Positions 48,251-64,000 of a DNA stretch of 64,000 bases are shown piece by piece. The DNA is taken from contig NZ_SPUW01000002.1 of the NCBI RefSeq assembly GCF_004959925.1, positions 930,001 through 994,000 of the forward strand. The letters run 5' to 3'. This DNA comes from Pseudooceanicola onchidii (GTDB lineage Bacteria; Pseudomonadota; Alphaproteobacteria; Rhodobacterales; Rhodobacteraceae). The notes beneath the pieces are model-generated. The model was not told where the DNA came from, made no database searches, and saw only the letters and a list, made by a program, of their open reading frames with translations. Both the position numbers and the translations under genes were made by a program. Every line of letters starts with the position of its first letter. The stretch's first letter is position 1.

Positions 48251-48583
48251 GGACTCATGCCTCCGTTAGGGTGTTGCCGAATAGGCAAGTCTTTCAGTCG
48301 GATTTCCATCTTGCCCCATGGCCGTCAAGGCGAATGGCCTGCCAGAGTGGCGGTTATTGCATGCGATATGCATCTTTCCGGGGTTTCTGACAAAAAAAGT
48401 AGGTTTATACAATACACCTTCCCGGCAGACTGTATTACCAGCCACGGCGCAGCGTGCGGTCTTCCCTGTTTCGGGGTGACGGATCGTGGGGGCTGCGGAC
48501 ATGCCAGTTGATTTCAGCACGCGCCCGACCCTCGCGGACCGCCAGCCAGAATCGCCACTCACTCGAATTTGCGGAACGTCGCC
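48251..48583. other. 333-bp divergent control region of the siderophore genes
   Basis: The spacer drives the ABC operon leftward and the receptor rightward. It contains an AT-rich core (48388-48425) with a -10-like TACAAT inside a palindrome. Known alphaproteobacterial iron boxes (RirA, Irr) were looked for by eye and not clearly found. Confidence 0.5.
48401..48419. promoter_or_regulatory. Candidate operator/promoter upstream of the TonB-dependent receptor
   Basis: AGGTTTAT-ACA-ATACACCT: eight-base arms with one mismatch. The centre overlaps TACAAT, a good -10 element, with CTGACA 15 bases upstream on the plus strand. A regulator bound here would block transcription. Confidence 0.4.
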
Positions 48584-50725
48584 ATGGGGTCCTCGACCAA
48601 CACTCGTCACCATTTCCTGTCCGGGCCCGCGCGGCTTGGCTCACTTCTTCTGGGATGCACGGCGCTGGTCGCCAGCCCGCTGGCCGTCGCGGCGCAGGAG
48701 GGCGGCGAGGCCGGCACCTATCGCCTGTCGCCGATCACGGTGGACCTGAGTTTCGAGGCCGACGACGACGCCAATTCCATCGTCGCGACCGAGCTTTGGA
48801 CGGGCGGCAAGGTCGCCACCAGCGTTCTGGACACGCCCGCCACCGTGTCGGTCGTGACGCAAAAGGACATTGAACAGCGCAATGCCGACAAGGTCGAGGA
48901 CGTGCTGGAATACACGCCGGGCGTCATCACCGACTACTACGGCACCGATGACCGGAACGATTATTACCTCGTGCGGGGATACCAGGCTTCGACCTACCGC
49001 GACGGGCTTACGCTTGGCACCATGCGCGGCGTCCGCGAGGAGCCCTATGCCTTCGAACGGCTCGAGGTGATGAAGGGCGGGAACTCGACCCTCTTTGGCA
49101 CGTCCGATCCGGGCGGCACGATCAACTTCGTGACCAAGTCGCCCAGGTTCGAACGCTTCGGAGAAGTCTATGGCAGCTATGGGTCTTACGACCACAAGGA
49201 GTTGGGGTTCGATTTCGGTGACGTGCTGAACGATGACCAGACGCTGGCCTACCGGGTTGTCGGCAAGGTCCAGAAGGCGGGGCTTGAGTATGCCAATTCG
49301 CGCGATGACGAACAGTTCTTCCTAGGCAGCCTCGCCTGGGCGCCGACAGATTACACGAAACTGACCTTCACGGTCGATTACCTGAAGCGTGACGGTTCAC
49401 CGAACAGTGGCGGCTATCCCCTTGATCAGCTGTATGATCGCAGCCTTTTCTTCGGAGAGCCGGGCTTCAACTATCACGATGTGGACCGGCTGACCGTGTC
49501 GACCGCCTTGCAGCACGAGTTTGAAAATGGCCTGCGCCTGACCGCGAACCTGCGGTACAGCGATCTGACGGACAGCTTCGGCTACCTGTACCTCAATGAC
49601 AGCGCGGGCCGGGTGGGCACGCTGGTACAGCGCGACATCTTCGGCGGTGACAGCACCGCGAAAGAGCTGATCGGCAACGCGATCCTGCAATACGACACGA
49701 CCATCGGCGGCGTCGACAGCAGTACGCTGGCGGGGGTGGAATTCCGCGACGCCTCGAACAGCTCGTCGAACTTCTACACCTTCAACTACGACCAGACCGA
49801 CGTGGCGAACCCGACCTATGCCGGGCCGCCCGCCACGCCCGCGCCCTATAGCGTGCAGGCCAACGACTATACGACCAAGTCGATCTTCGTGCAGCAGAAC
49901 CTGTCTTTCGCCGACCGGCTGGTTGCGACAGTGGGCGTGCGCCACGACTGGATGGATATCACAAACGTCGACAGCTCTTCTGGCACACCCGCGACGACCA
50001 GCGGCACCTTTTCGGAAACATCGTACCGCGCGGCACTGACCTACAAGGTCACCAGCGAAGTGTCGGCCTATACCAGCTATGTGCAATCGGTCGCGCCGCC
50101 GTCCATCGGGATCGAACCCGAGCGGGGCGATCAGTACGAGGTCGGGGTGAAGTATCAGCCCGAGGCCTACAACGCGATCTTCACCGCCTCGGCCTATGAC
50201 CTGACCAAGAAGAACGTCGTGGTGCCGGTGGTTCTGCCGGGCGGCATGATCGTGCGTCAGACGGTCGGGGAATCCCGCGTGCAGGGGTTCGAACTTGAGG
50301 CCAAGGCCGAACTGGCGGATGGGCTGAGCCTGAGCGGCGGCTATACCTACCAGAAGTCGACCTATGTGCGCGGCAACGTGCGTGGCACGACCGTGGACGG
50401 CAATGAATTTGCCACCGTGCCGAACCACATGGCCTCGGTCTGGCTGAACTACGACCTGCCGGGGGCGGGCGCCCTGGGCAAGATGTCCGTCGGGATCGGT
50501 GCGCGGTATATCGGGCCGTACTACTACAACGTCTACAACAACAGCGGCAGAAGCCCCGAGCAAACCTTCATCGATGCGTCCTTCGGGTACGACGTCGCCG
50601 AGAACACGCAATTGACGGTCAATGTGTCGAACCTCTTTGACAAACAGTACGTCGTGGGCAGCGGAACCGCGGATTACTACAACAATGGCCGCACCATCAC
50701 GGCGGCGCTGCGCCACAGCTGGTGA
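48584..50725 (+). CDS. TonB-dependent siderophore receptor
   Basis: A 713-residue outer-membrane receptor. The signal peptide ends near LAVAAQ, and LSPITVDLS is a likely TonB box. The plug domain (about 65-190) has TPATVSVVTQKDIEQRN, DVLEYTPGV and FERLEVMKGGNSTLFG-type motifs. A 22-strand barrel follows and ends NNGRTITAALRHSW with a terminal aromatic residue, as outer-membrane proteins require. The layout fits ferrichrome or hydroxamate-type receptors (FhuA/FoxA-like), but the ligand cannot be read from sequence. The ATG was preferred over a TTG five codons earlier. It diverges from the matching ABC importer. Confidence 0.95.
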   Translation: MGSSTNTRHHFLSGPARLGSLLLGCTALVASPLAVAAQEGGEAGTYRLSPITVDLSFEADDDANSIVATELWTGGKVATSVLDTPATVSVVTQKDIEQRNADKVEDVLEYTPGVITDYYGTDDRNDYYLVRGYQASTYRDGLTLGTMRGVREEPYAFERLEVMKGGNSTLFGTSDPGGTINFVTKSPRFERFGEVYGSYGSYDHKELGFDFGDVLNDDQTLAYRVVGKVQKAGLEYANSRDDEQFFLGSLAWAPTDYTKLTFTVDYLKRDGSPNSGGYPLDQLYDRSLFFGEPGFNYHDVDRLTVSTALQHEFENGLRLTANLRYSDLTDSFGYLYLNDSAGRVGTLVQRDIFGGDSTAKELIGNAILQYDTTIGGVDSSTLAGVEFRDASNSSSNFYTFNYDQTDVANPTYAGPPATPAPYSVQANDYTTKSIFVQQNLSFADRLVATVGVRHDWMDITNVDSSSGTPATTSGTFSETSYRAALTYKVTSEVSAYTSYVQSVAPPSIGIEPERGDQYEVGVKYQPEAYNAIFTASAYDLTKKNVVVPVVLPGGMIVRQTVGESRVQGFELEAKAELADGLSLSGGYTYQKSTYVRGNVRGTTVDGNEFATVPNHMASVWLNYDLPGAGALGKMSVGIGARYIGPYYYNVYNNSGRSPEQTFIDASFGYDVAENTQLTVNVSNLFDKQYVVGSGTADYYNNGRTITAALRHSW

Positions 50726-50732
50726 GGCCGGG

Positions 50733-50750
50733 GCCGCCCTGTCGGGCGGC
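50733..50750. terminator. Hairpin between convergent receptor and AraC genes
   Basis: GCCGCCC, tetraloop TGTC, GGGCGGC. It lies eight bases after the receptor stop and twelve before the AraC-family stop. There is no T-tract on either strand; it may act as a bidirectional boundary. Confidence 0.4.
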
Positions 50751-50761
50751 GCCATGCGCGC

Positions 50762-51682
50762 TTAGACCGGCCGATGCCCCCGTCGCCATGCGGCGGGGGT
50801 TTCGCCGATGATCTGCCGAAAGATGCGGGTCATATGGGCCTGATCGGAAAAGCCAAGGCGGTCGGCGATGTCGGCGACGCTCAGGTCGGTGTCGATCAGA
50901 AGGTCCTGCGATTGTTCGACCCGGCGGGCCAGTTGCCACTGGTGCGGGGTCTGGCCGGTCGTGTTCTTGAAAACCTGCGAGAACCAGCTTTCCGACAGGT
51001 TCACGGCTTCGGCCATCTGCGCAATGCTGAGCCGTTGCCCGTTCGCAGCCTCGAGCCGGGCAGTGACCCGCCGCATCTGCGCCGTGGTCAGCCGTGCGTT
51101 GACCGGATCGCTGGCTGGCTCTGCCAGGTCCAGGACGCCGGCCAGCAGGCTGGCTGCCAATGTCTCAAGAAACAGATCCGGCCGACGGTTTCCTTGCACT
51201 TCGCCGACAATCACCCGTCCGATCGGTTCGAGATCGGTGATGATGTCGCACGCCGCCGGATCGGCCAGAAGCCGCAGCGCGTCGGGCCGGGGCAGGAGCG
51301 GAGAGAGCACCTGCGCCGCCCACCCCAGATCAAGGTGGATGTCGAGATGGGCAAAGTTCAGATCCCGCGTGAAGGTCGTATCCATCAGGGCGCCCGCGGG
51401 CACGTAGATCGCCTGTGCCAGTGGGCGCGAGCCCATGGCGTCGACGACCTGGATCGACCGGACATTATCGAAGAACAGGCTGATGCGCGGATTGGCCGAC
51501 AGGTAATGCCCCTTGGCGCCGGCATCGCCCCGGGCCTCCCAATAGGCGGCAAGGATGTTGTCGGTCAGCCGCCATTGCACAGGCCTCAGGCAATGGACCT
51601 TCTGCGTTTCGCCGGTGAAATCGTGCTTGTAGCCCAAGGCGGACTCCGGGAGATGGGATCTTCGGATGGCTGCCGAAAGCAT
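50762..51682 (-). CDS. AraC family transcriptional regulator
   Basis: A 306-residue regulator. The C-terminal 100 residues hold two helix-turn-helix motifs: RLSIAQMAEAVNLSESWFSQVFK and DLSVADIADRLGFSDQAHMTR followed by FRQIIGETPAAWRR, the AraC signature. The N-terminal 190 residues form a cupin-like sensing domain with no close named relative. The ATG was chosen because AGG lies eight bases upstream; an in-frame GTG three codons earlier is possible. It converges on the siderophore receptor, and regulators in this place often sense the ferric siderophore and activate receptor and importer genes. Confidence 0.92.
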   Translation of the reverse strand: MLSAAIRRSHLPESALGYKHDFTGETQKVHCLRPVQWRLTDNILAAYWEARGDAGAKGHYLSANPRISLFFDNVRSIQVVDAMGSRPLAQAIYVPAGALMDTTFTRDLNFAHLDIHLDLGWAAQVLSPLLPRPDALRLLADPAACDIITDLEPIGRVIVGEVQGNRRPDLFLETLAASLLAGVLDLAEPASDPVNARLTTAQMRRVTARLEAANGQRLSIAQMAEAVNLSESWFSQVFKNTTGQTPHQWQLARRVEQSQDLLIDTDLSVADIADRLGFSDQAHMTRIFRQIIGETPAAWRRGHRPV

Positions 51683-51764
51683 CGGGCGCACCTGCGCCGG
51701 TCCGGACTCGCGTGAGCGCGCAGTCTAGGCCCGCACCCGGAGGGAGGCAAGATCGCCCCCGCCG

Positions 51765-52628
51765 TCAGGCGCCGCGGAAGATGCGCGATTCCCCGATCAT
51801 CTCTTCCAGCGTGGCGATCCGTTCGGCGCTTGAGGCCGAACACCGCGTCTGCACCTCGGCCACCAGTGCCTCGACCAGGAAGCTGATCGCGAGCGTGCTG
51901 TCCCAGGCCGAGGGGACCTCGACCATGGCGCGCAGGGTGTGGGTGGCGCAGCGTTCGATCGGCGATCCCCAGGCATCGGTGAACAGCACGATGTTGGCGC
52001 CCTGCTGCACGGCCAACGTCGACAGTTTCTCAAGCTCGCGCTCGTACCGGCGGATGTCGAAGATCACTAGGGTCGACTGCGCGTCCATGTCCAGCAGGGC
52101 CTGTGGCCAGGCACTGGGCGAACTGTCCAGCAGCGTGACCTGCGACCGGATGATCTGAAGATGGTTGAAAAAGTAGTGTGCGTTCGACCGGGTGATCCGC
52201 CCGCCCAGCAGGTGCAGTCGTCTGTTTGGGTCCGACAGAAGCGCGGCGATGCGGTCGAACTCGGCCAGGTCCAGCCGGTCGAGCGTGCGGTTGATGTTGT
52301 CCGAAACCGCCTCGGCAAAGCGGGACACGATGTGGTCGCGGGCGTCCTGCCGCGCCGCCTGGAACTTGGCCAGCGGCTGCTTGATACGGGCGGCGACTTC
52401 TTCGCGCATGGCATTCTGCAGGTCGGGAAAGCCTTCGAAGCCCAGCTTGCGCGCCAGCCGGATGACCGTGGGGGTCGACACCTCGGCGATTTCGGCCAAC
52501 CGGGTGATGGACTGCAGCCCCGTGACCAACCCGTCCGCCTCGAGCACCGCGCTGAGCTTGCGTTCCGATGCGGTCAGCTCGGCCTGCCGTTCCTTCAGCA
52601 GGTCGCGGATCAGGGGGCGTCTCTCCAA
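51765..52628 (-). CDS. MurR/RpiR family transcriptional regulator
   Basis: A 287-residue regulator with an N-terminal helix-turn-helix of the RpiR type (SITRLAEIAEVSTPTVIRLA, then KLGFEGFPDLQ) and a C-terminal SIS sugar-phosphate-binding-like domain (about 130-260; LHLLGGRITRSNA, NIVLFTDAWGSPI). No ATG lies near the expected start. A TTG with AGAAAGG eight bases upstream gives the family's usual length; another TTG seven codons earlier has a weaker ribosome site. It is divergent from an eight-gene catabolic operon and probably controls it through the palindrome in the shared spacer. The effector is unknown. Confidence 0.92.
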   Translation of the reverse strand: MERRPLIRDLLKERQAELTASERKLSAVLEADGLVTGLQSITRLAEIAEVSTPTVIRLARKLGFEGFPDLQNAMREEVAARIKQPLAKFQAARQDARDHIVSRFAEAVSDNINRTLDRLDLAEFDRIAALLSDPNRRLHLLGGRITRSNAHYFFNHLQIIRSQVTLLDSSPSAWPQALLDMDAQSTLVIFDIRRYERELEKLSTLAVQQGANIVLFTDAWGSPIERCATHTLRAMVEVPSAWDSTLAISFLVEALVAEVQTRCSASSAERIATLEEMIGESRIFRGA

Positions 52629-52665
52629 CTCTGTAGCCTTTCTAGACAAACTTTGTGTCGTTGAA

Positions 52666-52692
52666 GAAAATATTACAGGTATATTCTTGACA
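52666..52692. promoter_or_regulatory. Candidate RpiR operator and -35 element of the catabolic operon
   Basis: GAAAATA-N7-TATATTC (52666-52686): seven-base arms with one mismatch in an AT-rich patch. Immediately after it on the plus strand is TTGACA, a perfect -35 hexamer; the -10 is not clear. Binding here could control both the operon and the regulator. Confidence 0.45.
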
Positions 52693-52746
52693 GGCCAGAG
52701 TTTCCTGTAGTGATCATGACACCAGCAGCCGAGGGGACCATTTTCC

Positions 52747-53508
52747 GTGCACAGCGACGCACATAGCGCCGAGATCATCCGCGCAGACGGGGCAGGGCCG
52801 ATCGTGTTCGCCTGCGACCACGCCTCTTGCGCGATACCGGCGGGCTATGATGGCCTTGGCCTGTCTGAAGACGCCCGGCGGTCGCATGCCGCCTGGGATA
52901 TCGGCGCGCGGGATCTGGCGCTGGCGCTGTCCGATGCCTTCGATGCGCCGCTTGTTGCCAGCCGTGTGTCGCGACTTGTCTACGACGTGAACCGCCCGCT
53001 CGAGTCACCTACGGCCATTCCCGAAAAGAGCGAAATCTTCGACGTGCCGGGGAACCACGGTTTGTCTGACGCGGATCGTCAGGCCCGGTTCGACAGCTGC
53101 CACGCGCCGTTCCATTCAGCGATTTCCGATGTGCTCGACGCGCGCGACGACGCCCCGGCCTTCGTGACGATCCACAGCTTCACGCCCGTCTACAACGGTG
53201 TCCGGCGCGACGTCGAAATCGGCTATCTGCACGACCAGGGCGATGCGCTGGCCCGCGCTGCGCTCGAGGCCGAGCAGGCTGCGGGTCGCTATCGCGCGGC
53301 GTTGAACGAACCCTACGCGGCCTCGGACGGGGTGACGCATACCCTGCGCCTGCACGGCGAGGCCCGCGGGCTTCCCACCCTGATGATCGAGGTTCGCAAC
53401 GACCTGATCGACACGCCTGATACTGCTCGCGAAATGGCGACACATCTGGCCGAGGTGTTGAGGCAAAGCCTGAAGAGCATCGCGCAACCGAAGGAAAAGT
53501 CAGCATGA
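52747..53508 (+). CDS. N-formylglutamate amidohydrolase family protein
   Basis: A 253-residue cytoplasmic zinc-dependent hydrolase of the FGase family (HutG-like). Conserved parts are VFACDHASCAIPAGY, VSRLVYDVNRPLESP, IHSFTPVYNG and TLMIEVRNDLI. A GTG start is used; GAGGGG lies about ten bases upstream. The named family reaction is hydrolysis of N-formyl-glutamate to formate and glutamate, but many relatives are of unknown specificity. There are no histidine-degradation genes here. The gene instead heads an operon with a TRAP importer, a glutamate-ligase-type enzyme and two dehydrogenases, so it may split an N-acyl or gamma-glutamyl amide. It overlaps the next gene by four bases. Confidence 0.9.
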   Translation: MHSDAHSAEIIRADGAGPIVFACDHASCAIPAGYDGLGLSEDARRSHAAWDIGARDLALALSDAFDAPLVASRVSRLVYDVNRPLESPTAIPEKSEIFDVPGNHGLSDADRQARFDSCHAPFHSAISDVLDARDDAPAFVTIHSFTPVYNGVRRDVEIGYLHDQGDALARAALEAEQAAGRYRAALNEPYAASDGVTHTLRLHGEARGLPTLMIEVRNDLIDTPDTAREMATHLAEVLRQSLKSIAQPKEKSA

Positions 53509-54050
53509 ACGCCCTTCGTCGATATGTCGCGATCGTGGACACGGTGAACTATGGTCTGGGCCGGGTGATCATGTTCGGCATCTTCGCCCTCATGGCGGTT
53601 CTGGCCTGGTCCACGGTCTCGAAGGCCGTCTTCACGCCGTCGCTCTGGACCCTGGAAATGGCGCAGTTCGTCATGGTCGGCTACTTCATGCTGGGCGGGC
53701 CCTATTCGATCCAGATGGGGTCGAACGTGCGGATGGACCTGTTCTACGGAGATTTCAGTCCCCGCAAGAAAGCGTGGTTCGACAGCTTCACCGTGCTGTT
53801 CCTGGTCGTCTACCTTGGCATCCTTCTGTGGGGCGGAATCGAGTCCACCCAGTACGCCTTCCAGTACGGAGGAGAGCGCAGCGCCTCGGCCTGGCGGCCC
53901 TACATGTGGCCGATCAAGGTGGTCATGTGCATCGGCATCACCCTGATGTTGCTGCAGGCCCTGTCCGAGCTGGCCAAGGACATCATCTTTCTCAAGACCG
54001 GAGAGCGTCCGCAGGGCCGTGCCGACAAGGAGGCCTCCGATGCCGTATGA
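53505..54050 (+). CDS. dctQ: TRAP transporter small permease (DctQ)
   Basis: A 181-residue inner-membrane protein with four helices. The family segment SLWTLEMAQFVMVGYFMLGG followed by YSIQMGSNVRMDLFYG corresponds to the WExxxxL/HVRVD block of small TRAP subunits. It starts inside the end of the amidohydrolase gene (four-base overlap) and its own end overlaps the large permease start by 11 bases. Confidence 0.93.
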   Translation: MNALRRYVAIVDTVNYGLGRVIMFGIFALMAVLAWSTVSKAVFTPSLWTLEMAQFVMVGYFMLGGPYSIQMGSNVRMDLFYGDFSPRKKAWFDSFTVLFLVVYLGILLWGGIESTQYAFQYGGERSASAWRPYMWPIKVVMCIGITLMLLQALSELAKDIIFLKTGERPQGRADKEASDAV

Positions 54051-55368
54051 ACTGATCGCGATCCTCATGTTCTCGTCCATGATGGTGATGCTCTTTACCG
54101 GGCAGCGGGTCTTTGGCGCCATCGGCTTTGTCGCCGTGATCGCGGCGGTGCTTCTTTGGGGGGACCGCGGCGGGTACGACATCGGATTTTCGGCCGCGAT
54201 CAAGGTGATGCGCTGGTATCCGCTGCTGACGCTGCCGATGTTCGTCTTCATGGGGTACGTGATGTCGGAAAGCCGGATCGCGGATGACCTCTATAAGATG
54301 TTCCACGTCTGGATGGGCGGGCTGCACGGTGGCCTGGCGATCGGTACGATTTTCCTGATGGTTCTGATATCCGCGATGAACGGACTTTCCGTCGCGGGCA
54401 TGGCCATCGGGGCGACCATCGCGCTGCCCGAACTGCTCAAGCGGGGCTATGACAAGATCATGGTGACGGGGGTCATTCAGGCCGGATCGTCGCTTGGCAT
54501 CCTTGTCCCGCCCTCGGTCGTGCTTGTCCTTTACGCGATGATCGCGCGGCAGCCGGTGGGGCAGCTTTGGCTGGCCGGGGTGCTGCCGGGGCTGATGATG
54601 GCGGCGCTCTTCGTGATCTACATCGCGGTGCGCTGCCGCTTGAACCCGGCGCTTGGCCCGATCCTGCCGAAGGAAGAACGCGAAGCGGTGCCGCTTGGAG
54701 AAAAGCTGCGCCTGTTGCGCGCGGGTCTGCTGCCGCTGGCGATCTTCTTCATCATGATGGTGCCCTTCGTGAACGGCTGGACCTCGCTTGTCGAAAGCTC
54801 GGCCATCGGCGCGATGTCGGCCTTCCTCGCCGCGGTGTTGAAGGGGCGGATGACCTGGACCGTGTTCGAAACCTGCCTGCGTCAAACCCTTGGGATCACG
54901 TGCATGTTCATGTGGATCATCCTGGCGGCGCTGGCCTTCGGCGCGGTCTTCGACGGGCTGGGCGCGGTCAAGGCGATCGAGAACCTGTTCACCGAACAGC
55001 TGGGCCTCAGCCCCTGGGTGATCCTGATCCTGATGCAGCTGTCGTTCCTGGTCATGGGCACCTTCCTCGACGACACGGCCATGCTGGTGATCGTTGCGCC
55101 GCTTTACGTGCCGCTGGTGGGGGAGTTGGGCTTCAACCTGATCTGGTACGGGGTTCTGTACACGATCACCTGCCAGATCGCCTATATGACGCCGCCGTTT
55201 GGCTATAACCTGTTCCTGATGCGGGCGATGGCGCCGCCGGAGATCGGGTTGAAGGACATCTACCGGTCCATCGTGCCCTTCGTCGGCGTCATGGCGGTGG
55301 CACTGGCGATCGTGATGGTCTTCCCGCAGATCGCGCTCTGGCTGCCGGAGCTTGTGTATTCAAGATGA
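54040..55368 (+). CDS. dctM: TRAP transporter large permease (DctM)
   Basis: A 442-residue inner-membrane protein with about 12 helices. AAGGAGG lies just upstream of the chosen ATG (MPYELIAILMFSSMMV). Family motifs are NGLSVAGMAIGATIALPELL, GSSLGILVPPSVVLVLYAM and GTFLDDTAMLVIVAPLY. The ILVPPS motif is typical of TRAP carriers, and relatives with GTFLDD near the end often transport small organic acids or sugar acids; the ligand here is unknown. It overlaps the small permease gene. Confidence 0.95.
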   Translation: MPYELIAILMFSSMMVMLFTGQRVFGAIGFVAVIAAVLLWGDRGGYDIGFSAAIKVMRWYPLLTLPMFVFMGYVMSESRIADDLYKMFHVWMGGLHGGLAIGTIFLMVLISAMNGLSVAGMAIGATIALPELLKRGYDKIMVTGVIQAGSSLGILVPPSVVLVLYAMIARQPVGQLWLAGVLPGLMMAALFVIYIAVRCRLNPALGPILPKEEREAVPLGEKLRLLRAGLLPLAIFFIMMVPFVNGWTSLVESSAIGAMSAFLAAVLKGRMTWTVFETCLRQTLGITCMFMWIILAALAFGAVFDGLGAVKAIENLFTEQLGLSPWVILILMQLSFLVMGTFLDDTAMLVIVAPLYVPLVGELGFNLIWYGVLYTITCQIAYMTPPFGYNLFLMRAMAPPEIGLKDIYRSIVPFVGVMAVALAIVMVFPQIALWLPELVYSR

Positions 55369-55423
55369 ACCAGAGACCGGGGCAACCGGTTCGCAAAATT
55401 CGAAACCAACAGGAGAGAAAGAC

Positions 55424-56461
55424 ATGACAACAAGACGTTCCTTTATTCGCGGGGCCGCCACGGCCATCCCCGCGACGCTGGCGGCCCCCGCCATCGTCAA
55501 GGCGCAGGATGCCATCAAGTGGCGGTTCCAGACCTACGCGGGTTCGGCGCTTGGTGAACAGGTGACGAAACCGATCATCGACTACATCAACACCGCCGCC
55601 AACGGCGAGCTTGAGATCGAGCTGTTCTATGCCGACCAGATCGTCCCCACGGGCGAACTGTTCCAGGCCATGCAGCGCGGCACGATTGATGGTGTGCATT
55701 CGGATGATGACTCCATGGCGTCGCCGACCCCGCTGCGCCAGTTCGGCGGCTATTTCCCCTTTGCGACCAAGCACATCCTCGACGTGCCGGTGCTGTTCAA
55801 CCAGTACGGCCTGAAGGAGATCTGGGAAGAGGAATACGCCAAGGTCGGCGTCAAGTGGCTGTCCGCCGCTGGCCAGGACCCGTGTAACTTCAACACCAAG
55901 AAAGAGATCACGTCCGTCGCCGATCTGGATGGTCTGAAACTTTATACATTCCCGACCGCGGGCCGTTTCCTGGCACAGTTCGGCGTCGTTCCGATGAACA
56001 TCCCCTATGAGGATGCGGAAGTTGCCGTACAGACCGGTGAGCTTGACGGGATGGCCTGGTCGGGCATCACCGAAGACTACACCGTCGGCTGGGCGGATGT
56101 GACCGACTACTTCCTGACCAACAACATCTCGGGCGCCTGGATCGGGTCGTTCTTCGTGAACGAAGGCCGTTGGGCCGATCTGCCGGACCACCTGAAGACG
56201 CTGGTCATGTCGGCGATCGAAGCGGGCCACACCTACCGCAACCAGTGGTACTGGGGTGGCGAGGCCAAGCTGCGGGCGACCGGCGACAAGCTGGAACTGC
56301 GCACCGTGCCGGCAAACGAATGGGCCGAGGTCGAGAACGCCGCGAAGGTGTTCTGGGACGAAGTCGCGCAGGAAGGCGAAGTGCACCAGAAGATCGTCAA
56401 CATCTTCAAGGAATACAACGCCGTCATCAACCAGGCAGGCCCGCCGTACACCAACGGCTGA
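55424..56461 (+). CDS. dctP: TRAP transporter substrate-binding protein (DctP, Tat signal)
   Basis: A 345-residue periplasmic receptor with the Tat-type signal MTTRRSFIRGAATAIPATLA ending near VKAQD. AGGAGAG precedes the ATG. DctP-family parts include FQTYAGSALGEQVTKPIID, the block LDGLKLYTFPTAGRFLAQFG and the C-terminal YNAVINQAG. The usual R of the carboxylate-binding KxR motif is replaced in KLYTFPTAGRF by a shifted arrangement, so the ligand may not be a simple carboxylate; this is a tentative reading. Relatives with Trp-rich pockets (AWSGITEDYTVGW) occur for amides and amines. A GC-rich hairpin follows the gene. Confidence 0.93.
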   Translation: MTTRRSFIRGAATAIPATLAAPAIVKAQDAIKWRFQTYAGSALGEQVTKPIIDYINTAANGELEIELFYADQIVPTGELFQAMQRGTIDGVHSDDDSMASPTPLRQFGGYFPFATKHILDVPVLFNQYGLKEIWEEEYAKVGVKWLSAAGQDPCNFNTKKEITSVADLDGLKLYTFPTAGRFLAQFGVVPMNIPYEDAEVAVQTGELDGMAWSGITEDYTVGWADVTDYFLTNNISGAWIGSFFVNEGRWADLPDHLKTLVMSAIEAGHTYRNQWYWGGEAKLRATGDKLELRTVPANEWAEVENAAKVFWDEVAQEGEVHQKIVNIFKEYNAVINQAGPPYTNG

Positions 56462-56480
56462 TCGCCTTATCAAAGACTTG

Positions 56481-56508
56481 CAGGGTGGCCCCGTCGTGGG
56501 CCGCCCTG
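56481..56508 (+). other. Intercistronic hairpin after dctP
   Basis: CAGGGTGGCCC, six-base loop, GGGCCGCCCTG: 11 pairs with one G-T. There is no T-tract. It should stabilise the upstream receptor mRNA. Confidence 0.5.
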
Positions 56509-56534
56509 TCACGTGACACGGGAAAGGAAACGTC

Positions 56535-57899
56535 ATGGCAGGCAACCTGTCGCTTGAGACGCTCAAGGAAATGGCCGCGACCGGAGAGATCGACACGGTC
56601 CTCGTCGCGCTGGTCGACATGCAGGGCCGCCTCATGGGCAAGCGGTTCCACGTGTCCAACTTCATCGATCACTCGATCGAGGAAACCCACTGCTGCAACT
56701 ACCTGCTGGCGACCGACCTCGTGATGTCGACCCCGGACGGGTACAAGTCGACCTCGTGGGAATCCGGCTATGGCGATTACACGCTGAAGCCCGACCTTTC
56801 GACGCTGCGGCTGGTGCCCTGGCTGGACGGGACCGCGCTGGTCCTTGGCGATCTGGAAGATCACCACACGCACGCGCCGGTGCCGCACGCCCCGCGCGAG
56901 ATGCTGAAGGCGCAGGTCAAGCGTCTGAAAGACATGGGCTTCGACGCCATGATGGCGACCGAGCTGGAATTCTTTCTGTTCGAAAAGGATTATCGGACAT
57001 TACAGAAAGAAGGGTATCAGGAACTGGTCCCGCTGTCCGGCCATAACGAGGATTACAACCTTTTCCAGACCACCAAGGAAGAGGGCATCATGCGCCCGCT
57101 GCGCAACCATCTGGTCGGTGCGGGCATCCCGGTCGAGAACACCAAGGGCGAGGCCGAGATCGGCCAGCAGGAGCTGAACATCCGCTATGCCGATGCGATG
57201 GACTGCGCCGACAACCATACGATCGCCAAGCATGCGACCAAGGAAATCGCCTGGATGAACGGCCGTTCGGCCTCGTTCCTTGCGAAGTGGGCGTCTGACA
57301 AGGTGGGGTCCTCCAGCCACGTGCACATGTCGCTGTGGAAGGATGGCGAGGCCGCGTTTTTCGACAAGACCGACACGCACGGCATGTCCGACGTGATGAA
57401 AAGCTTTACCGCCGGGCTGCTGAAATACGCCCGCGATTACACCTTCTTCCTTGCGCCTTACATCAACAGTTACAAGCGGTTCGCCAAGGGCACCTTCGCG
57501 CCGACCAAATCCGTCTGGTCCGTCGACAACCGCACCGCGGCTTTCCGCCTGTGTGGCGAAGGGACCAAGGGCGTGCGCATGGAATGCCGTATCGGCGGGT
57601 CGGACCTGAACCCCTATCTTGCCCAAGCCGCGCTGCTGGCCGCGGGCATCAAGGGCATTGAGGAGGGGCTGAGCCTCGCCGCGCCGACCAAGGGTGATGT
57701 CTACGACGCCAAGGATGTCGAAGAGATCCCGACCTCGCTTCGGGAAGCCACGGAAACCCTTGCGGGATCGACCATGCTGCGCGAAGCCTTCGGCGATTTC
57801 GTGGTCGATCACTATGTCCGCTGCGCCCAGTGGGAGCAGGAGGAATACGACCGCGTGGTCACCGACTGGGAAATCGAGCGTGGGTTCGAAAGGTCCTGA
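56535..57899 (+). CDS. Glutamine synthetase family protein (PuuA/gamma-glutamyl-amide synthetase-like)
   Basis: A 454-residue ligase of the glutamine-synthetase fold. Metal-binding and catalytic glutamates are visible in ATELEFFLF and GEAEIGQQELNI. The ATP-site block is KVGSSSHVHMSLW, and NRTAAFRLCGEGTKGVRMECR is the usual C-terminal arginine region. Length (about 450) and the opening (LVDMQGRLMGKRF) match the non-ammonia, gamma-glutamylamine-type branch (PuuA, IpuC, GlnT-like) rather than housekeeping GlnA. It probably joins glutamate to an amine using ATP. Two dehydrogenases and an amidohydrolase in the operon fit later steps of a gamma-glutamylated pathway. AAAGGAAA is a weak ribosome site. 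Confidence 0.92.
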   Translation: MAGNLSLETLKEMAATGEIDTVLVALVDMQGRLMGKRFHVSNFIDHSIEETHCCNYLLATDLVMSTPDGYKSTSWESGYGDYTLKPDLSTLRLVPWLDGTALVLGDLEDHHTHAPVPHAPREMLKAQVKRLKDMGFDAMMATELEFFLFEKDYRTLQKEGYQELVPLSGHNEDYNLFQTTKEEGIMRPLRNHLVGAGIPVENTKGEAEIGQQELNIRYADAMDCADNHTIAKHATKEIAWMNGRSASFLAKWASDKVGSSSHVHMSLWKDGEAAFFDKTDTHGMSDVMKSFTAGLLKYARDYTFFLAPYINSYKRFAKGTFAPTKSVWSVDNRTAAFRLCGEGTKGVRMECRIGGSDLNPYLAQAALLAAGIKGIEEGLSLAAPTKGDVYDAKDVEEIPTSLREATETLAGSTMLREAFGDFVVDHYVRCAQWEQEEYDRVVTDWEIERGFERS

Positions 57900-57900
57900 C

Positions 57901-58269
57901 ATGATCGACAGCATCGACCACGTTGTGCTGACCGTCCGCGACATCGACGCGGCGGTCGCCTTCTACACCCGCGTGCTGGGGGTCGAGGTTGTCGCCTTTG
58001 CCGGAGGCCGGCGCGCGCTGGCCTTCGGGTCGCAGAAGATCAACCTCCAGACCCTGGGGCAGGAGGTGCGCAATCACGCCTGCATCGGGTCGGGGGATCT
58101 GTGCCTTGTCACGCAGTGGCCGGTTTCGGACGTTCTGAAACGACTGGCGGATGAGAATGTAGAGGTGGTGGAAGGACCGGTCGCGAAATCGGGCGCGCTC
58201 GGGCCGATCACCTCGGTGTACTTCAATGACCCCGATGGCAATCTGATCGAAGTGAGCCGCTATGACTGA
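57901..58269 (+). CDS. VOC family protein (glyoxalase/dioxygenase fold)
   Basis: A 122-residue single-domain VOC protein. It begins MIDSIDHVVLTVRDIDAAVA, with the conserved first metal ligand His7, and ends TSVYFNDPDGNLIEVSRYD, with the conserved terminal Glu. The middle segment QKINLQTLGQEVRNHACIGS resembles GLOD5-like proteins. It could bind metal and act on an aldehyde, hemithioacetal or similar intermediate. It starts one base after the ligase stop and overlaps the aldehyde dehydrogenase start by eight bases, so it is an integral operon member. The reaction is unknown. Confidence 0.9.
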   Translation: MIDSIDHVVLTVRDIDAAVAFYTRVLGVEVVAFAGGRRALAFGSQKINLQTLGQEVRNHACIGSGDLCLVTQWPVSDVLKRLADENVEVVEGPVAKSGALGPITSVYFNDPDGNLIEVSRYD

Positions 58270-59647
58270 AACTCTCAAGTGTATTTCCCCGATCGACGGA
58301 TCGGTGTTCGCCGAACGCCCCGTCCTGTCGTTCGACGAGGCCCGGGCCGCCGCCGCGCGCGCCCGGCAGGCGCAGGCCGCATGGGCCGCCCGTCCGCTGC
58401 AGCAACGGATCGACCTGGTGATGGCCGGCGTGGCCGCCGTGGGCGCGATGAACGACGAGATCGTGCCGGAACTGGCGCAGATGATGGGCCGCCCGATCAA
58501 GTTCGGCGGCGAATTCAAGGGGTTCAATGAACGTGCGTCCTATTTGGCCGAGATCGCCGAAGACGCGCTGAAGGATATCGAGGTCGGCGAGGACGCGAGC
58601 TTCAAACGCTATATCCGCCGTCTGCCCTGGGGCGTCGTGCTGGTCGTCGCGCCCTGGAACTATCCCTACATGACCGCGATCAACACGGTCGCGCCGGCGC
58701 TGATTGCGGGCAATACGGTGGTGCTGAAACACGCGACCCAGACCCTTCTGGTGGGCGAACGCATGGCGCGGGCCTTCCATTCCGCGGGCGTGCCCGAGGA
58801 TGTCTTCCAGAACGTCTTCCTGTCCCATGACACGACCGACGCGCTGCTCAAGGCGCGGGCGTTCGATTTCGTGAACTTCACCGGGTCCGTCGGCGGCGGG
58901 CAGGCGATGGAACGCGCGGCGGCAGGCACCTTCGTGCCGGTGTCGACCGAGCTTGGCGGCAAGGACCCGGGCTATGTCATGGAGGACGCGGATCTGGATG
59001 CGGCCGTCGACACGCTGATGGACGGCGCGCTGTTCAATTCGGGTCAGTGCTGCTGCGGCATCGAACGGATCTACGTGCACGAATCGCTCTATGACGCCTT
59101 TGTCGAAAAGGCCGTGGCCTGGGCCAAGTCGCTGAAGCTGGGCAACCCGATGGACCCCGACACCACGATCGGCCCGATGGCCAACGTGCGGTTCGCCCGT
59201 GAGGTCCGCGCGCAGATCGACGCGGCGGTCGCGGCGGGGGCTACGGCGCACCTTCCGGTCGATCCGGCGGATGACGGAGGCGCCTACCTGACGCCGCAGG
59301 TCCTGACCGGCGTGACCCACGACATGGAGGTCATGCGCGAGGAAAGTTTTGGCCCCGTGGTCGGCATCATGAAGGTGTCGTCGGATGACGAGGCCGTGGC
59401 GCTGATGAACGACAGCAAGTACGGGCTGACAGCCTCGCTCTGGACGCAGGACCTTGACCGGGCCGTGGCCGTGGGCGACCGGATCGAAACCGGGACCGTT
59501 TTCATGAACCGCGCCGATTACCTTGATCCGGGCCTCTGCTGGACCGGCTGCAAGGATACCGGGCGCGGGGGCGGGCTGTCGGTGATCGGCTACCAGAACC
59601 TGACCCGTCCAAAATCCTATCATCTCAAGCGTTTGGGAAATGCTTGA
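58262..59647 (+). CDS. NAD(P)-dependent aldehyde dehydrogenase
   Basis: A 461-residue cytoplasmic enzyme. Catalytic residues are Asn in PWNYPYMTA, Glu in STELGGKDPG and Cys in NSGQCCCGIERIYV. The Rossmann turn is NFTGSVGGGQAME. Length is slightly short for the superfamily but complete. In the context of the operon it would oxidise the aldehyde made by the iron alcohol dehydrogenase, in the place of PuuC in the putrescine pathway. Its start overlaps the VOC gene. The cysteine-rich active-site loop (three Cys in a row) is a small peculiarity. Confidence 0.95.
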   Translation: MTETLKCISPIDGSVFAERPVLSFDEARAAAARARQAQAAWAARPLQQRIDLVMAGVAAVGAMNDEIVPELAQMMGRPIKFGGEFKGFNERASYLAEIAEDALKDIEVGEDASFKRYIRRLPWGVVLVVAPWNYPYMTAINTVAPALIAGNTVVLKHATQTLLVGERMARAFHSAGVPEDVFQNVFLSHDTTDALLKARAFDFVNFTGSVGGGQAMERAAAGTFVPVSTELGGKDPGYVMEDADLDAAVDTLMDGALFNSGQCCCGIERIYVHESLYDAFVEKAVAWAKSLKLGNPMDPDTTIGPMANVRFAREVRAQIDAAVAAGATAHLPVDPADDGGAYLTPQVLTGVTHDMEVMREESFGPVVGIMKVSSDDEAVALMNDSKYGLTASLWTQDLDRAVAVGDRIETGTVFMNRADYLDPGLCWTGCKDTGRGGGLSVIGYQNLTRPKSYHLKRLGNA

Positions 59648-59743
59648 TCAACACGGATCGCCGATGGCCCGAGAGCGCGCAGCGCGGCAGGGCATCGGGG
59701 ATGCATCAGATTTATCAAACGCTAGAACGAAGAAGGTGACGAA

Positions 59744-60889
59744 ATGAGCCCGACTGCCAACTGGTCCTATCCCACGGCCATCCGTTTCGGGGCCGGCCGC
59801 ATCGCCGAGCTGCCCGAGGCCTGCATCGCCGCAGGCATGAAGAACCCGCTTCTCGTGACCGACAAGGGTCTGAAAAGCATGGAGATCACGACCAAGGCGC
59901 TTGATATCCTCGATGCTGCCGGTCTGGGTCGTGGGCTTTTTGCCGAGGTCGATCCCAACCCGTCCGAGGTCAACCTTGAGGCCGGGCTGAAGGTCTATCG
60001 CGAGGGCGAACATGACGGCGTGATCGCCTTTGGCGGCGGCTCCGGCCTTGATCTGGGCAAGATGGTCGCCTTCATGGCCGGCCAGTCGCGGCCGGTCTGG
60101 GATTTCGAGGATATCGGTGACTGGTGGACCCGCGCGGACCCCGCAGGCATCGCCCCGATCATCGCCGTTCCCACCACCGCCGGGACGGGATCCGAGGTCG
60201 GCCGCGCCTCGGTCATCACGAACTCTGAAACGCATGTGAAGAAGATCATCTTCCATCCCAAGGTCCTGCCCACGGTGGTGATCTGCGACCCGGAACTGAC
60301 CGTGGGCATGCCCAAACACATCACCGCAGGCACCGGCCTTGATGCCTTTGCGCATTGCGTCGAGGCGTTTTCCTCGCCTTTCTACCATCCGATGTCGCAG
60401 GGCATAGCGCTGGAGGGGATGCGTCTGGTGATCGAGAACCTGCCGCGCGCCTACAAGGACGGGTCGGATATCGAGGCGCGGGCGAACATGATGTCCGCCG
60501 CCGCCATGGGCGCGACCGCCTTCCAGAAGGGGCTGGGTGCAATCCACGCGATGAGCCACCCGATCGGCGCGGTCTATGGCACGCACCACGGCACGACCAA
60601 TGCGGTCTGTATGCCCGCCGTGCTGGACCTCAATGCGCCTGAAATCACGGATCGCTTCGACAAGGCGGCCGGATACCTTGGTATTTCAGGTGGTTACAAG
60701 GGCTTCAGAAGCTTCGTGAATGACTTCAACGACAGCTTTGCCATCCCCAAGGGTCTGGGCGAGATAGGTGTCGAGGCCGACCGGATCGACGATCTGGTCG
60801 CTATGGCGCTGGAAGATCCGTCCTGCGGTGGCAACCCGGTCAAGCTGACGGCCGAGAACCTCAAGGCGTTGTTCGAAGCGGCGATGTGA
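59744..60889 (+). CDS. Iron-containing alcohol dehydrogenase
   Basis: A 381-residue type III alcohol dehydrogenase. The cofactor-binding motif is FGGGSGLDLGK followed by PTTAGTGSEV. Metal ligands lie in GTGLDAFAHCVEAF (Asp and His), AIHAMSHPIGAVYGTHHG (two His). It converts a primary or secondary alcohol to the aldehyde or ketone with NAD(P). It starts 96 bases after the aldehyde dehydrogenase with GAAGGTG upstream, and is the last gene of the operon; a REP-like element and a bidirectional terminator follow. In the pathway proposed here it would oxidise the hydroxyl group of a gamma-glutamylated amino alcohol. Confidence 0.95.
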   Translation: MSPTANWSYPTAIRFGAGRIAELPEACIAAGMKNPLLVTDKGLKSMEITTKALDILDAAGLGRGLFAEVDPNPSEVNLEAGLKVYREGEHDGVIAFGGGSGLDLGKMVAFMAGQSRPVWDFEDIGDWWTRADPAGIAPIIAVPTTAGTGSEVGRASVITNSETHVKKIIFHPKVLPTVVICDPELTVGMPKHITAGTGLDAFAHCVEAFSSPFYHPMSQGIALEGMRLVIENLPRAYKDGSDIEARANMMSAAAMGATAFQKGLGAIHAMSHPIGAVYGTHHGTTNAVCMPAVLDLNAPEITDRFDKAAGYLGISGGYKGFRSFVNDFNDSFAIPKGLGEIGVEADRIDDLVAMALEDPSCGGNPVKLTAENLKALFEAAM

Positions 60890-61045: not shown

Positions 61046-61804
61046 TTACTTCGGGGCCATCCGGATCGCGCCGTCCAGGCGCACGACCTCACCGTTCATG
61101 TACTGCGTTTCCACCATGAACTTGACCGTGTTGGCAAAATCCGCCGGATCGCCCAGCCGCGAGGGGTAGGGGACCTGGTGGCCAAGGCTTTCCTGCACGT
61201 CCTCGGGCAGCGACGCCAGCAGCGGCGTCTTGAAGATGCCGGGCGCGATGGTGTTCACGCGGATCCCCGACCGGGCCAGTTCGCGCGCCATCGGAAGCGT
61301 CATGCCGACGATCCCGCCCTTGGAGGCGGAATAGGCGGTCTGGCCGATCTGGCCGTCGAAGGCTGCGACCGAGGCGGTGTTGACGATCACGCCCCGCGCA
61401 TTGTCGTCGATCGGGTCGCGGTCCAGCATCCGCGCGGAGGCCAGACGGGCGACGTTGAAGGTGCCGATCAGGTTGACCTTGATGACCGTCTCGAAGTTCG
61501 CCAGCGGCATCGGGCCGTTCTTGCCGACCATCTTTTCCGGCGGGCCGATGCCCGCGCAGTTCACGACGATCCGCAAGGGCGCGCCGCTGTCGGCGATATC
61601 GATGGCCTTCTGGACGTCCTCTTCCGAGGTCACGTCACCCGCTGCGGCCCGTCCGCCGATGGCCTTCGCGGCGGCCTCGGCGGCCTCGGCGTTGCGGTCC
61701 AGCACGGTGACCTCGGCGCCTGCATCCGCCAGCATCTGGGCAACCGCCAGGCCCAGGCCCGATCCGCCACCGGTGACAAGCGCGCCACTTCCTTGAATTT
61801 TCAT
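61046..61804 (-). CDS. Short-chain dehydrogenase, 3-hydroxyacyl-CoA dehydrogenase type II-like
   Basis: A 252-residue SDR. The NAD-binding motif is TGGGSGLGLA with Asp following for NAD preference (VLDRN). The catalytic residues are Ser in NTASVAAF and YSASK (Tyr-x3-Lys). The insert MLDRDPIDDNARGVIVNTASV is a hallmark of the HSD10 / type II 3-hydroxyacyl-CoA dehydrogenase branch. It probably oxidises a 3-hydroxyacyl-CoA. Its start overlaps the stop of the CoA ligase gene by one base, so the two are co-expressed. Confidence 0.93.
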   Translation of the reverse strand: MKIQGSGALVTGGGSGLGLAVAQMLADAGAEVTVLDRNAEAAEAAAKAIGGRAAAGDVTSEEDVQKAIDIADSGAPLRIVVNCAGIGPPEKMVGKNGPMPLANFETVIKVNLIGTFNVARLASARMLDRDPIDDNARGVIVNTASVAAFDGQIGQTAYSASKGGIVGMTLPMARELARSGIRVNTIAPGIFKTPLLASLPEDVQESLGHQVPYPSRLGDPADFANTVKFMVETQYMNGEVVRLDGAIRMAPK

Positions 61805-63639
61805 CAGTTTCCTCCCTTCGGGCGGATGACGTCCGGATCATCCGCATACAATCTGTCGACCAGGTCGGCGCGGTGCCGCAGCACGGCGCGCTGGTTGACC
61901 GAACCTTTGTCCGTAACTTCCCCCTTGTCGAGGTCCAGCGGCGATTTCATCAGCATCACGGCGGTCACCCGGGTCGAAGATCCGCCGTCCGCCGCCCCAT
62001 GGGCCGCCAGCCGCGCGGCCACAGCGTCGCGCACGGCGGGGTGGTCCAGCAGGGCATCTTCGGTCGCATCGGGGGCGAGGGCTGCCAGCCGCGCCCGGTC
62101 GGGCACCAGAAGCGCGGTCAGACGGTCGCGGTTTTCCCCCGCAATTACCGCGTCCGAGGCCAGGCCCCCCATCTGGTCGACCAGTTTCGCGCGCAGGGCG
62201 CCGACTGCGACCCAGGTGCCGGTCTGAAGTTTGAAGTTTTCGGCAATTCTGCCATCAAAGAAAAAGCCCTTCCAGGGGTTGCCCTCTTCGGCAAAGCGCA
62301 GGGCGTCGCCCAGCATGTAGAAGCCTTCGTCGTCAAAGGCCTTTTCGGTCATTTCAGGATTGCGCCAATAGCCGGGCGTGACGTTCGGCCCCTTGATGCG
62401 GACCTCAAGCTTGCCTTCGTTGGGCACCAGTTTCATCACCACCCCCTGGCTGGGGATGCCGACATTGCCGGGCCCGGTCTGCGGGTCGGTACAGTACAGA
62501 CTGAACGGTGCGGTTTCCGTCGATCCAAGGCCGGTCGACATCAGCACCTTGTGGCCGACGGTCTGTTCGGCCAGTTCCTCAAGCCGGGTCCAGGTGTGCT
62601 GCGCCAGGCCCGCGCCGGCATACATCATGTGCTTGAGATTACGAAAGAAACTCTCGCGCAGTTCATCGTCCGTTTCCATCGCCTTGGCCAGCGCCTCGAA
62701 CCCGGCGGGGACGGTCAGGTGCCAGTTGGGGGAAATCTCGCGCAGGTTGAGGATGGTTTCGGCCATGCCGCCGGGCGTCGGCTTGCCGTGGTCGATGTAG
62801 TAGGTGCCGCCGTTGTAGAGCACCATGTTGAAGACCTTGTTGCCGGCGGCCGTATGGCTCCACGGCAGCCAGTTGACGACCACGGGCGGCTCGTCCCGCA
62901 GGAAGGCATAGCAATCCGCCACGATCTCCTGGTTCGAGGCCAGCATGCGGTTGGTCTGGGTCACCGCCTTGGGGGTGCCGGTCGTGCCGGAGGTGCAGAG
63001 GAACTTGACCACCGTGTCAGGGCCGGTGGCCAGATGCGCGGTGCGCACGGCCTCGGTCGGCTCGGCCTGCGCGTCGGCCCACAGGGTCGTCTGGCGGCCC
63101 GCGACCGTCCCTTCGCAGGTCACGACGGTCACATCCGCGGGCAGGGCCTTGAGGATTGCGTCCTCGAAGGGTGCGGCGGTCTGGGCAAAGACCAGCCCGG
63201 GGGTGATCTGGTCGGCGATCCCGCGCAGCTTTTGATAGTCAGACGCGACCAACGCATAGGCGGGGGAAATCGCGGCTGACGGTATGCCGACATATTGTGC
63301 CGCCAGCGCGATCATCGCGTGTTCCAGCGTGTTTTCCGACAGGATCATGACGGGCCGGTCGGTCGACAGCCCCTGCGTCAGCAGCCACTGACCCACCCGC
63401 GCCACGGTGTCCGCGAGCTGCGCATAGGTGACCGTGCGCCAGTCATCGCCGTCCCGTTCGGCCATCCAGATGGTGTCGGGCGTGCGTTCGGCCCAATGGT
63501 CGATCCGGTCGGTCATCCGGTCGGGGTAGGGGGCGATGTCATCGCCGCGCCAGATCAACCATGAGCCGTCGGCGCGTTTGTCCCATTGCAGGTCGGGCTG
63601 CCACAGCCGGGCGGGCCGATATCCGGGTGCATCTGCCAT
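61804..63639 (-). CDS. Feruloyl-CoA-synthetase-like acyl-CoA ligase
   Basis: A 611-residue AMP-forming ligase. The P-loop A3 motif is LCTSGTTGTPKA, the A5 motif is STGLGSTETAPF, and the A7/A8 region reads YMLGDALRFAEEG and FFFDGRIAENFKL. Length and the opening (RPARLWQPDLQW, SWLIWRGDD) match the feruloyl-CoA synthase branch, which is longer than ordinary acyl-CoA synthetases. The start MADAPGYRPARL is preceded by GAGGAG. It likely activates a phenylpropanoid or similar acid with CoA. With the SDR and the divergent crotonase it makes a beta-oxidation-like side-chain shortening set. The exact acid is not known. Confidence 0.9.
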   Translation of the reverse strand: MADAPGYRPARLWQPDLQWDKRADGSWLIWRGDDIAPYPDRMTDRIDHWAERTPDTIWMAERDGDDWRTVTYAQLADTVARVGQWLLTQGLSTDRPVMILSENTLEHAMIALAAQYVGIPSAAISPAYALVASDYQKLRGIADQITPGLVFAQTAAPFEDAILKALPADVTVVTCEGTVAGRQTTLWADAQAEPTEAVRTAHLATGPDTVVKFLCTSGTTGTPKAVTQTNRMLASNQEIVADCYAFLRDEPPVVVNWLPWSHTAAGNKVFNMVLYNGGTYYIDHGKPTPGGMAETILNLREISPNWHLTVPAGFEALAKAMETDDELRESFFRNLKHMMYAGAGLAQHTWTRLEELAEQTVGHKVLMSTGLGSTETAPFSLYCTDPQTGPGNVGIPSQGVVMKLVPNEGKLEVRIKGPNVTPGYWRNPEMTEKAFDDEGFYMLGDALRFAEEGNPWKGFFFDGRIAENFKLQTGTWVAVGALRAKLVDQMGGLASDAVIAGENRDRLTALLVPDRARLAALAPDATEDALLDHPAVRDAVAARLAAHGAADGGSSTRVTAVMLMKSPLDLDKGEVTDKGSVNQRAVLRHRADLVDRLYADDPDVIRPKGGN

Positions 63640-63722
63640 GGGGTCTCCTCCTCCGGCGATAAATTCGTTTACAAGGAAACAATTTTCTGGGAAACAATCA
63701 ATGACGAAAATGAGGTGCCCCG

Positions 63723-64000
63723 ATGACCGACCAGACAATTGACCCCGAAATCGTCCTTTACGAGCTGGATGGCGATGTGGCGATCATCACCCTGAACCGT
63801 CCCGAAAAGCGCAATGCCGTCAGTGACCGTCTGATCGCGGCGCTGGCCGAGGCGGTCAAGCGGGCGCAGGCCGAGGCCAAGGCGGCCGTGATCTGTGGCG
63901 AGGGCAAGCATTTCTGCGCCGGGCTGGACCTGGCTGAACACGTCAAGCGGACGCCGATCGAAGGGGTGCATCATTCGCGCCTGTGGCACGCGGTGTTCGA
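63723..64000 (+). CDS. Crotonase family protein (3' partial)
   Basis: The first 92 residues of an enoyl-CoA hydratase/isomerase family protein; the gene runs off the window. VAIITLNRPEKRNAVSDRLI is the family opening, and GEGKHFCAGLDLAEH contains the first part of the oxyanion hole. AATGAGG lies upstream of the ATG. It is divergent from the acyl-CoA ligase gene with 83 bases between, a pairing that fits hydration or chain cleavage of the CoA ester made by the ligase. Confidence 0.9.
   Translation, partial: MTDQTIDPEIVLYELDGDVAIITLNRPEKRNAVSDRLIAALAEAVKRAQAEAKAAVICGEGKHFCAGLDLAEHVKRTPIEGVHHSRLWHAVF

Follow-up and report, generated by a model that had tools for sequence, protein, structure and literature searches.

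Ethanolamine gamma-glutamylation was reportedly described by Vetting et al. (2015) as a pathway of Chromohalobacter salexigens, which is a gammaproteobacterium. The Puu pathway of Escherichia coli is built on the logic of gamma-glutamyl protection, with a ligase, an aldehyde dehydrogenase (ALDH) and a hydrolase. We examined 64,000 nucleotides of the Pseudooceanicola onchidii genome (the window), in which positions 51765-60889 carry an operon with a tripartite ATP-independent periplasmic (TRAP) importer and a glutamine-synthetase-like ligase, and compared this operon with described ethanolamine systems. In Phaeobacter sp. MED193, the operon MED193_10021-10056 encodes RpiR, GGAH (gamma-glutamylglycine amidohydrolase), EtoV, EtoW, EtoX, ETAGA (ethanolamine gamma-glutamylase), GAADDH and GETADH; phosphorylethanolamine induces five of the operon proteins, and the dissociation constant (Kd) of EtoX for ethanolamine is 7.9 uM (PMC10132767). 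The C. salexigens pathway is assigned to families PF00120, PF00465 (iron-dependent dehydrogenase), PF00171 and PF05013 (formylglutamate amidohydrolase, FGase) in a review table that lists the four enzymes for both C. salexigens and Streptomyces (PMC9397018 Table 2). The same steps are proposed for Streptomyces, with a member of the FGase family as the predicted gamma-glutamylglycine hydrolase (PMC6529630).

In the window, a minus-strand RpiR gene diverges from eight plus-strand genes, all of them intact by Pfam scan, which encode in order an FGase-family protein, DctQ, DctM, DctP, a Gln-synt_C ligase, a Glyoxalase/vicinal oxygen chelate (VOC) protein, an ALDH (Aldedh) and an iron-type alcohol dehydrogenase (Fe-ADH). 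An initial annotation made from the letters alone had named these genes, their order and both ends of the operon, and all agreed with the open reading frames (ORFs) and the Pfam scan. The Eto-type gene set is present in the order RpiR-FGase-DctQ-DctM-DctP-ligase-ALDH-FeADH. These are the eight genes of the MED193 operon in its listed order, and the predicted reactions are common to both. The MED193 legend, on which this comparison was made rather than on sequence, differs in naming no VOC gene in the interval from ligase to ALDH, across which the locus tags continue in steps of five with no gap. From sequence and by analogy with the published operons, we read the locus as a TRAP-linked gamma-glutamyl ethanolamine catabolic pathway of the Eto type, with a probability of roughly 0.9.

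All substrates and reactions were assigned from the published relatives. The EtoX-like DctP would capture periplasmic ethanolamine and DctQM would import it; the ligase would then join ethanolamine to glutamate, using ATP. The iron alcohol dehydrogenase is predicted to oxidize gamma-glutamylethanolamide to the aldehyde, the ALDH to convert the aldehyde to gamma-glutamylglycine, and the FGase protein to split this into glycine and glutamate, with RpiR probably controlling the operon. The source genome encodes GcvP, and an outlet for glycine would therefore be available. TRAP import of an amino alcohol, gamma-glutamylation, oxidation through aldehyde to acid and a final hydrolysis had all been proposed in the initial annotation, and the match to the published operon supports that scheme. 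Ethanolamine, one of the candidates it named, is the best-supported substrate, given the published operon and the relation of DctP to 4uab.

The binding protein (55424-56461, plus strand) matched the solved structures 4uab/4xf5 with 483 bits over 316 residues, and the runner-up with 62 bits. Structure 4UAB is Csal_0678 of C. salexigens with bound ethanolamine and an acidic platform residue, Glu220 (PMC12410723). Of the TRAP DctP sequences examined in PMC4646407, 96.8% keep a counterpart of the arginine that contacts the ligand carboxylate, and Csal_0678 has no equivalent of this residue, Arg-147 (PMC4646407). We therefore compared this alignment column in two sets of proteins. The orthologue set (n = 74) comprised those with a long DctP match among 80 comparison loci, which were the best 80 of 585 relatives matched by peptide patterns of the window's own ligase and are skewed towards close relatives. 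The paralogue set (n = 18) comprised the 19 DctP proteins found in the source genome minus the EtoX-like one. Orthologues had Phe (43) or Tyr (31) at this position, Tyr174 in the window, while 17 of the 18 paralogues had Arg and one had Gly. Glu217, which none of the 18 paralogues shares, was kept by at least 73 of the 74 orthologues; it is a candidate for platform Glu220 of Csal_0678, given an inferred numbering offset of 3. Many other polar and aromatic positions were conserved across the orthologues. By sequence, the window protein is closely related to Csal_0678 and lacks the TRAP carboxylate arginine, and the window shares both this binding-protein family and the four enzyme families with C. 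salexigens. A second DctP gene in the window (30911-31744, minus strand) is of the ordinary kind and keeps the arginine. The two permease genes of the operon, EtoV-like DctQ (53505-54050, PF04290) and EtoW-like DctM (54040-55368, PF06808, 230 bits), lie on the plus strand directly upstream of the EtoX-like gene.

The putative ethanolamine gamma-glutamylase (56535-57899, plus strand, PF00120) aligned over residues 2-453 of 454 with 5dm3, which we take to be a C. salexigens protein, at 692 bits. It scored far below the cut-offs of both the GlnA model (243 bits, cut-off 429) and the PuuA model NF045547 (200 bits, cut-off 650). The nearest named ligases among the best 80 of 585 relatives, those of Pseudooceanicola nitratireducens and P. 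batsensis, are 91% identical, and the ligase was found at E up to 1e-150 in at least 179 of the 295 genomes of our family sample. The remaining enzymes have more distant solved relatives. For the FGase-family hydrolase (52747-53508, plus strand, start uncertain; PF05013, 142 bits), a candidate gamma-glutamylglycine amidohydrolase by orthology to the published operon, 2odf (Atu2144) was the sole one at E up to 0.001. The top match of the putative gamma-glutamylaminoacetaldehyde dehydrogenase (58262-59647, plus strand, PF00171, 403 bits) reached just 232 bits. The predicted gamma-glutamylethanolamide dehydrogenase (59744-60889, plus strand, PF00465 and PF25137) was nearest to methanol and 1,3-propanediol dehydrogenases, at 233 to 207 bits, and scored 356 bits on the 4-hydroxybutyrate dehydrogenase model (cut-off 500).

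Compared with E. coli Puu, the window has both the oxidase and the PuuD-type hydrolase replaced. Neither an amine oxidase nor a class I amidotransferase family was detected in the ten proteins scanned, the rest of the genome not having been searched for PuuB or PuuD. The Eut ammonia-lyase pathway differs in its EutB, for which the source genome (3.67 Mb, 99.83% complete) gave no match while the E. coli control was positive. The GlnA4 pathway of Streptomyces coelicolor (SCO1611-SCO1615) shares with the window a gamma-glutamylethanolamide synthetase, a dehydrogenase, an ALDH and a predicted FGase-family hydrolase, but has another transporter and regulator, and its legend includes a short-chain dehydrogenase and a glutamine amidotransferase (PMC6529630). 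The initial annotation was right that an alcohol dehydrogenase takes the place of the oxidase, and it had regarded the use of an FGase in place of PuuD as new. Neither assignment is new, because both are already given in the portions of PMC10132767, PMC9397018 (Table 2) and PMC6529630 that set out the pathway. The system is thus a known one, and the VOC gene is its only element outside the published operon legend.

Conservation of the gene order was assessed by requiring FGase, DctQ, DctM, DctP, ligase, ALDH and FeADH in order within 10.5 kb. All seven core genes stand in this order in 64 of the 80 loci, a degree of clustering well beyond what chance would give. The other 16 include cuts at contig ends, two loci (L027 and L066) in which the ligase stands without the rest of the cluster, one (L076) that lacks TRAP genes and has the FGase gene immediately ahead of the ligase, and three (L021, L040 and L058) considered below. 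On a plasmid of Ruegeria conchae (NZ_CP081104.1, 4546-11895; L152), FGase, ligase, ALDH and iron alcohol dehydrogenase genes were likewise present without TRAP genes, preceded by genes for a DeoR regulator and a member of the inositol monophosphatase family and followed by an EamA transporter and ABC genes. In L152 and L076 the arrangement has the appearance of a second form of the module, for which a phosphate ester might be the source.

Several points weigh against the ethanolamine reading and were set against two other explanations. In L021, L040 and L058 (3 of 80) the ligase is followed directly by the iron alcohol dehydrogenase, and no ALDH was found in the locus. In the relevant parts of the published sources, support for the steps after the ligase consists of proteomics, transcription and genome context, with no purified FGase, ALDH or alcohol dehydrogenase activity on glutamylated substrates. 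The offset that pairs Glu217 with Glu220 is itself inferred, close amino alcohols are indistinguishable by sequence, and the case in this organism is a sequence-based one. The enzymes would suit any primary amino alcohol, so the same chemistry might serve mainly 3-aminopropanol, L-alaninol, isopropanolamine or serinol; sequence cannot fix ligand specificity, and the proximity of the alcohol dehydrogenase to 1,3-propanediol dehydrogenases and its partial score on the 4-hydroxybutyrate model point the same way. We consider this very unlikely, as DctP is close to a protein crystallized with ethanolamine, the ethanolamine Kd of an EtoX from this operon type has been measured (PMC10132767), and many polar and aromatic DctP positions are conserved in the orthologues. 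A new route for another amino alcohol was set aside, since the binding protein and gene order match the published ethanolamine systems.

TRAP importers usually carry carboxylates (PMC4646407) and the ligase belongs to PF00120, as would be expected of an ordinary nitrogen or sugar-acid operon in which a plain glutamine synthetase is joined to a TRAP system for an organic acid. That explanation is extremely improbable. The carboxylate arginine is gone in 74 of 74 orthologues, the ligase falls well short of the GlnA cut-off, and the genome has four further Gln-synt_C genes, the best of which scores 449 bits on the Pfam model. Given the missing arginine and the low GlnA score, we rejected the reading as a plain glutamine synthetase operon.

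With the locus read as an ethanolamine operon, we next considered the VOC gene (57901-58269, plus strand, PF00903), which separates ligase from ALDH and runs into the start of the ALDH gene. Its product matched GLOD5 and STM3117-type proteins over the whole length, with 127 bits to 3ey7, 118 to STM3117 (3hnq) and 113 to GLOD5 (3zw5). The slot between ligase and ALDH could be assessed in 75 of the 80 loci. A gap of more than 180 bases was present in 13 of these and no such gap in 62. A GLOD5-type VOC occupied four slots (L001, L002, L008 and L015) and was absent from 71. The other nine gapped slots held a VOC of a different type (L011 and L013), SnoaL-like proteins (L024, L039 and L078), DUF7662 and PIN genes (L036), a pair similar by eye (L018), or short ORFs (L020 and L026). 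In the family sample, a VOC gene adjoins the ligase in at least five of 295 genomes, the window's own included (G000, G060, G079, G217 and G182, the last with the ligase cut by a contig end); this is a lower bound from 30 VOC matches examined as loci, and more cases are possible. The synteny check suggested in the initial annotation, on eight genes including the VOC, was borne out for the seven core genes and failed for the VOC, which is not a conserved component of the pathway. A second insertion slot lies between DctM and DctP, where additional ORFs, roughly 206 to 244 residues long, are present in L008, L014, L028, L039 and L059; by eye, those of L014 and L028 encode a GNAT-like protein and those of L039 and L059 form a related pair.

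The window VOC falls in a subclade of 16 rows with support of 100/100. Members of this subclade also occur between coxD-like and coxE-like genes (L134, L135 and L139) and beside a glycerate-kinase-like gene (L136), as labeled by eye, and these four are 66 to 71% identical to the window VOC. The VOC tree requires three changes of the label 'ethanolamine operon', which is not below the number for shuffled labels, and it is still compatible with a single origin. All 16 rows have a three-residue deletion relative to GLOD5 and STM3117-type proteins. In the INLH motif, the His position is Gln in 13 of 16 rows, the window's included, His in L088 and L092, and neither in one row. The His-His-Glu metal-ligand set, which we take to belong to GLOD5-type VOC proteins, is incomplete in the window VOC, the second position being Gln.

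Its position between ligase and ALDH, and the small proteins that take the same slot elsewhere (a second VOC type or SnoaL-like), would fit a VOC that performs a real catalytic step, for example in handling reactive gamma-glutamylaminoacetaldehyde. This is unlikely, given the many ligase-ALDH pairs that lack this VOC or any sizable gap and the subclade copies beside cox-like and glycerate-kinase-like genes; as a general claim, a conserved pathway enzyme was rejected on the count of 4 in 75 slots. Judging from its sequence distribution, the VOC is most likely a lineage-specific, mobile accessory passenger and not a required step, although it might conceivably help in handling the aldehyde. The gap might also be an exchangeable accessory slot into which unrelated small proteins (GLOD5-type VOC, second VOC type, SnoaL-like) were installed independently for one shared job, such as repair of or guarding against a reactive N-acyl aminoacetaldehyde intermediate, but we regard this as quite improbable. 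The VOC gene goes unmentioned in the published pathway descriptions as far as these were covered, with no search aimed at it having been made.

The RpiR-family regulator (51765-52649, minus strand, Pfam HTH_6 and SIS) occupies the same place as the Phaeobacter RpiR. Its ORF is open to 52778, where an ATG overlaps the FGase start. Homology begins at residues 42 to 57 in nine of 12 aligned relatives and at residues 16 to 23 in the other three (L006, L008 and L016), and the gene of an annotated relative (L153) spans 849 bases, with 123 bases separating it from the FGase gene. Because of these homology limits and the shorter annotated gene, the true start is probably near 52649 rather than 52778. 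Between that start and the FGase gene there would then be space for a conserved TTGACA...TGTAGTGAT block at 52687-52714. In an alignment of 13 RpiR-FGase intergenic regions, TTGACA was present in 11, the other two extracts starting downstream of it, and TGTAGTGA in nine. The window's block (52674-52714, plus strand) has a TACAGG arm, TTGACA and a CCTGTA arm besides TGTAGTGAT. As a consensus promoter scan did not flag the block, its promoter or operator role is tentative, a guess.

Downstream, at 61046-63738, lies a convergent pair encoding a short-chain dehydrogenase/reductase (SDR) and an AMP-dependent ligase that by eye resembles feruloyl-CoA synthase. The two adjoin the operon in two of the 80 loci (L001 and L002), and L153 has a gene annotated as SDR 3' of the iron alcohol dehydrogenase. 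Upstream, at 48569-51691, are a TonB-dependent receptor-like gene and an AraC-type regulator on the opposite strand, as labeled by eye, which seem unrelated.

A reading made from bare sequence thus arrived at a published pathway. Loss of the carboxylate arginine offers an inexpensive way to recognize ethanolamine-type TRAP importers from sequence. The locus would also add one more genome to a pathway through which the breakdown of membrane lipids is tied to the marine supply of nitrogen and carbon.

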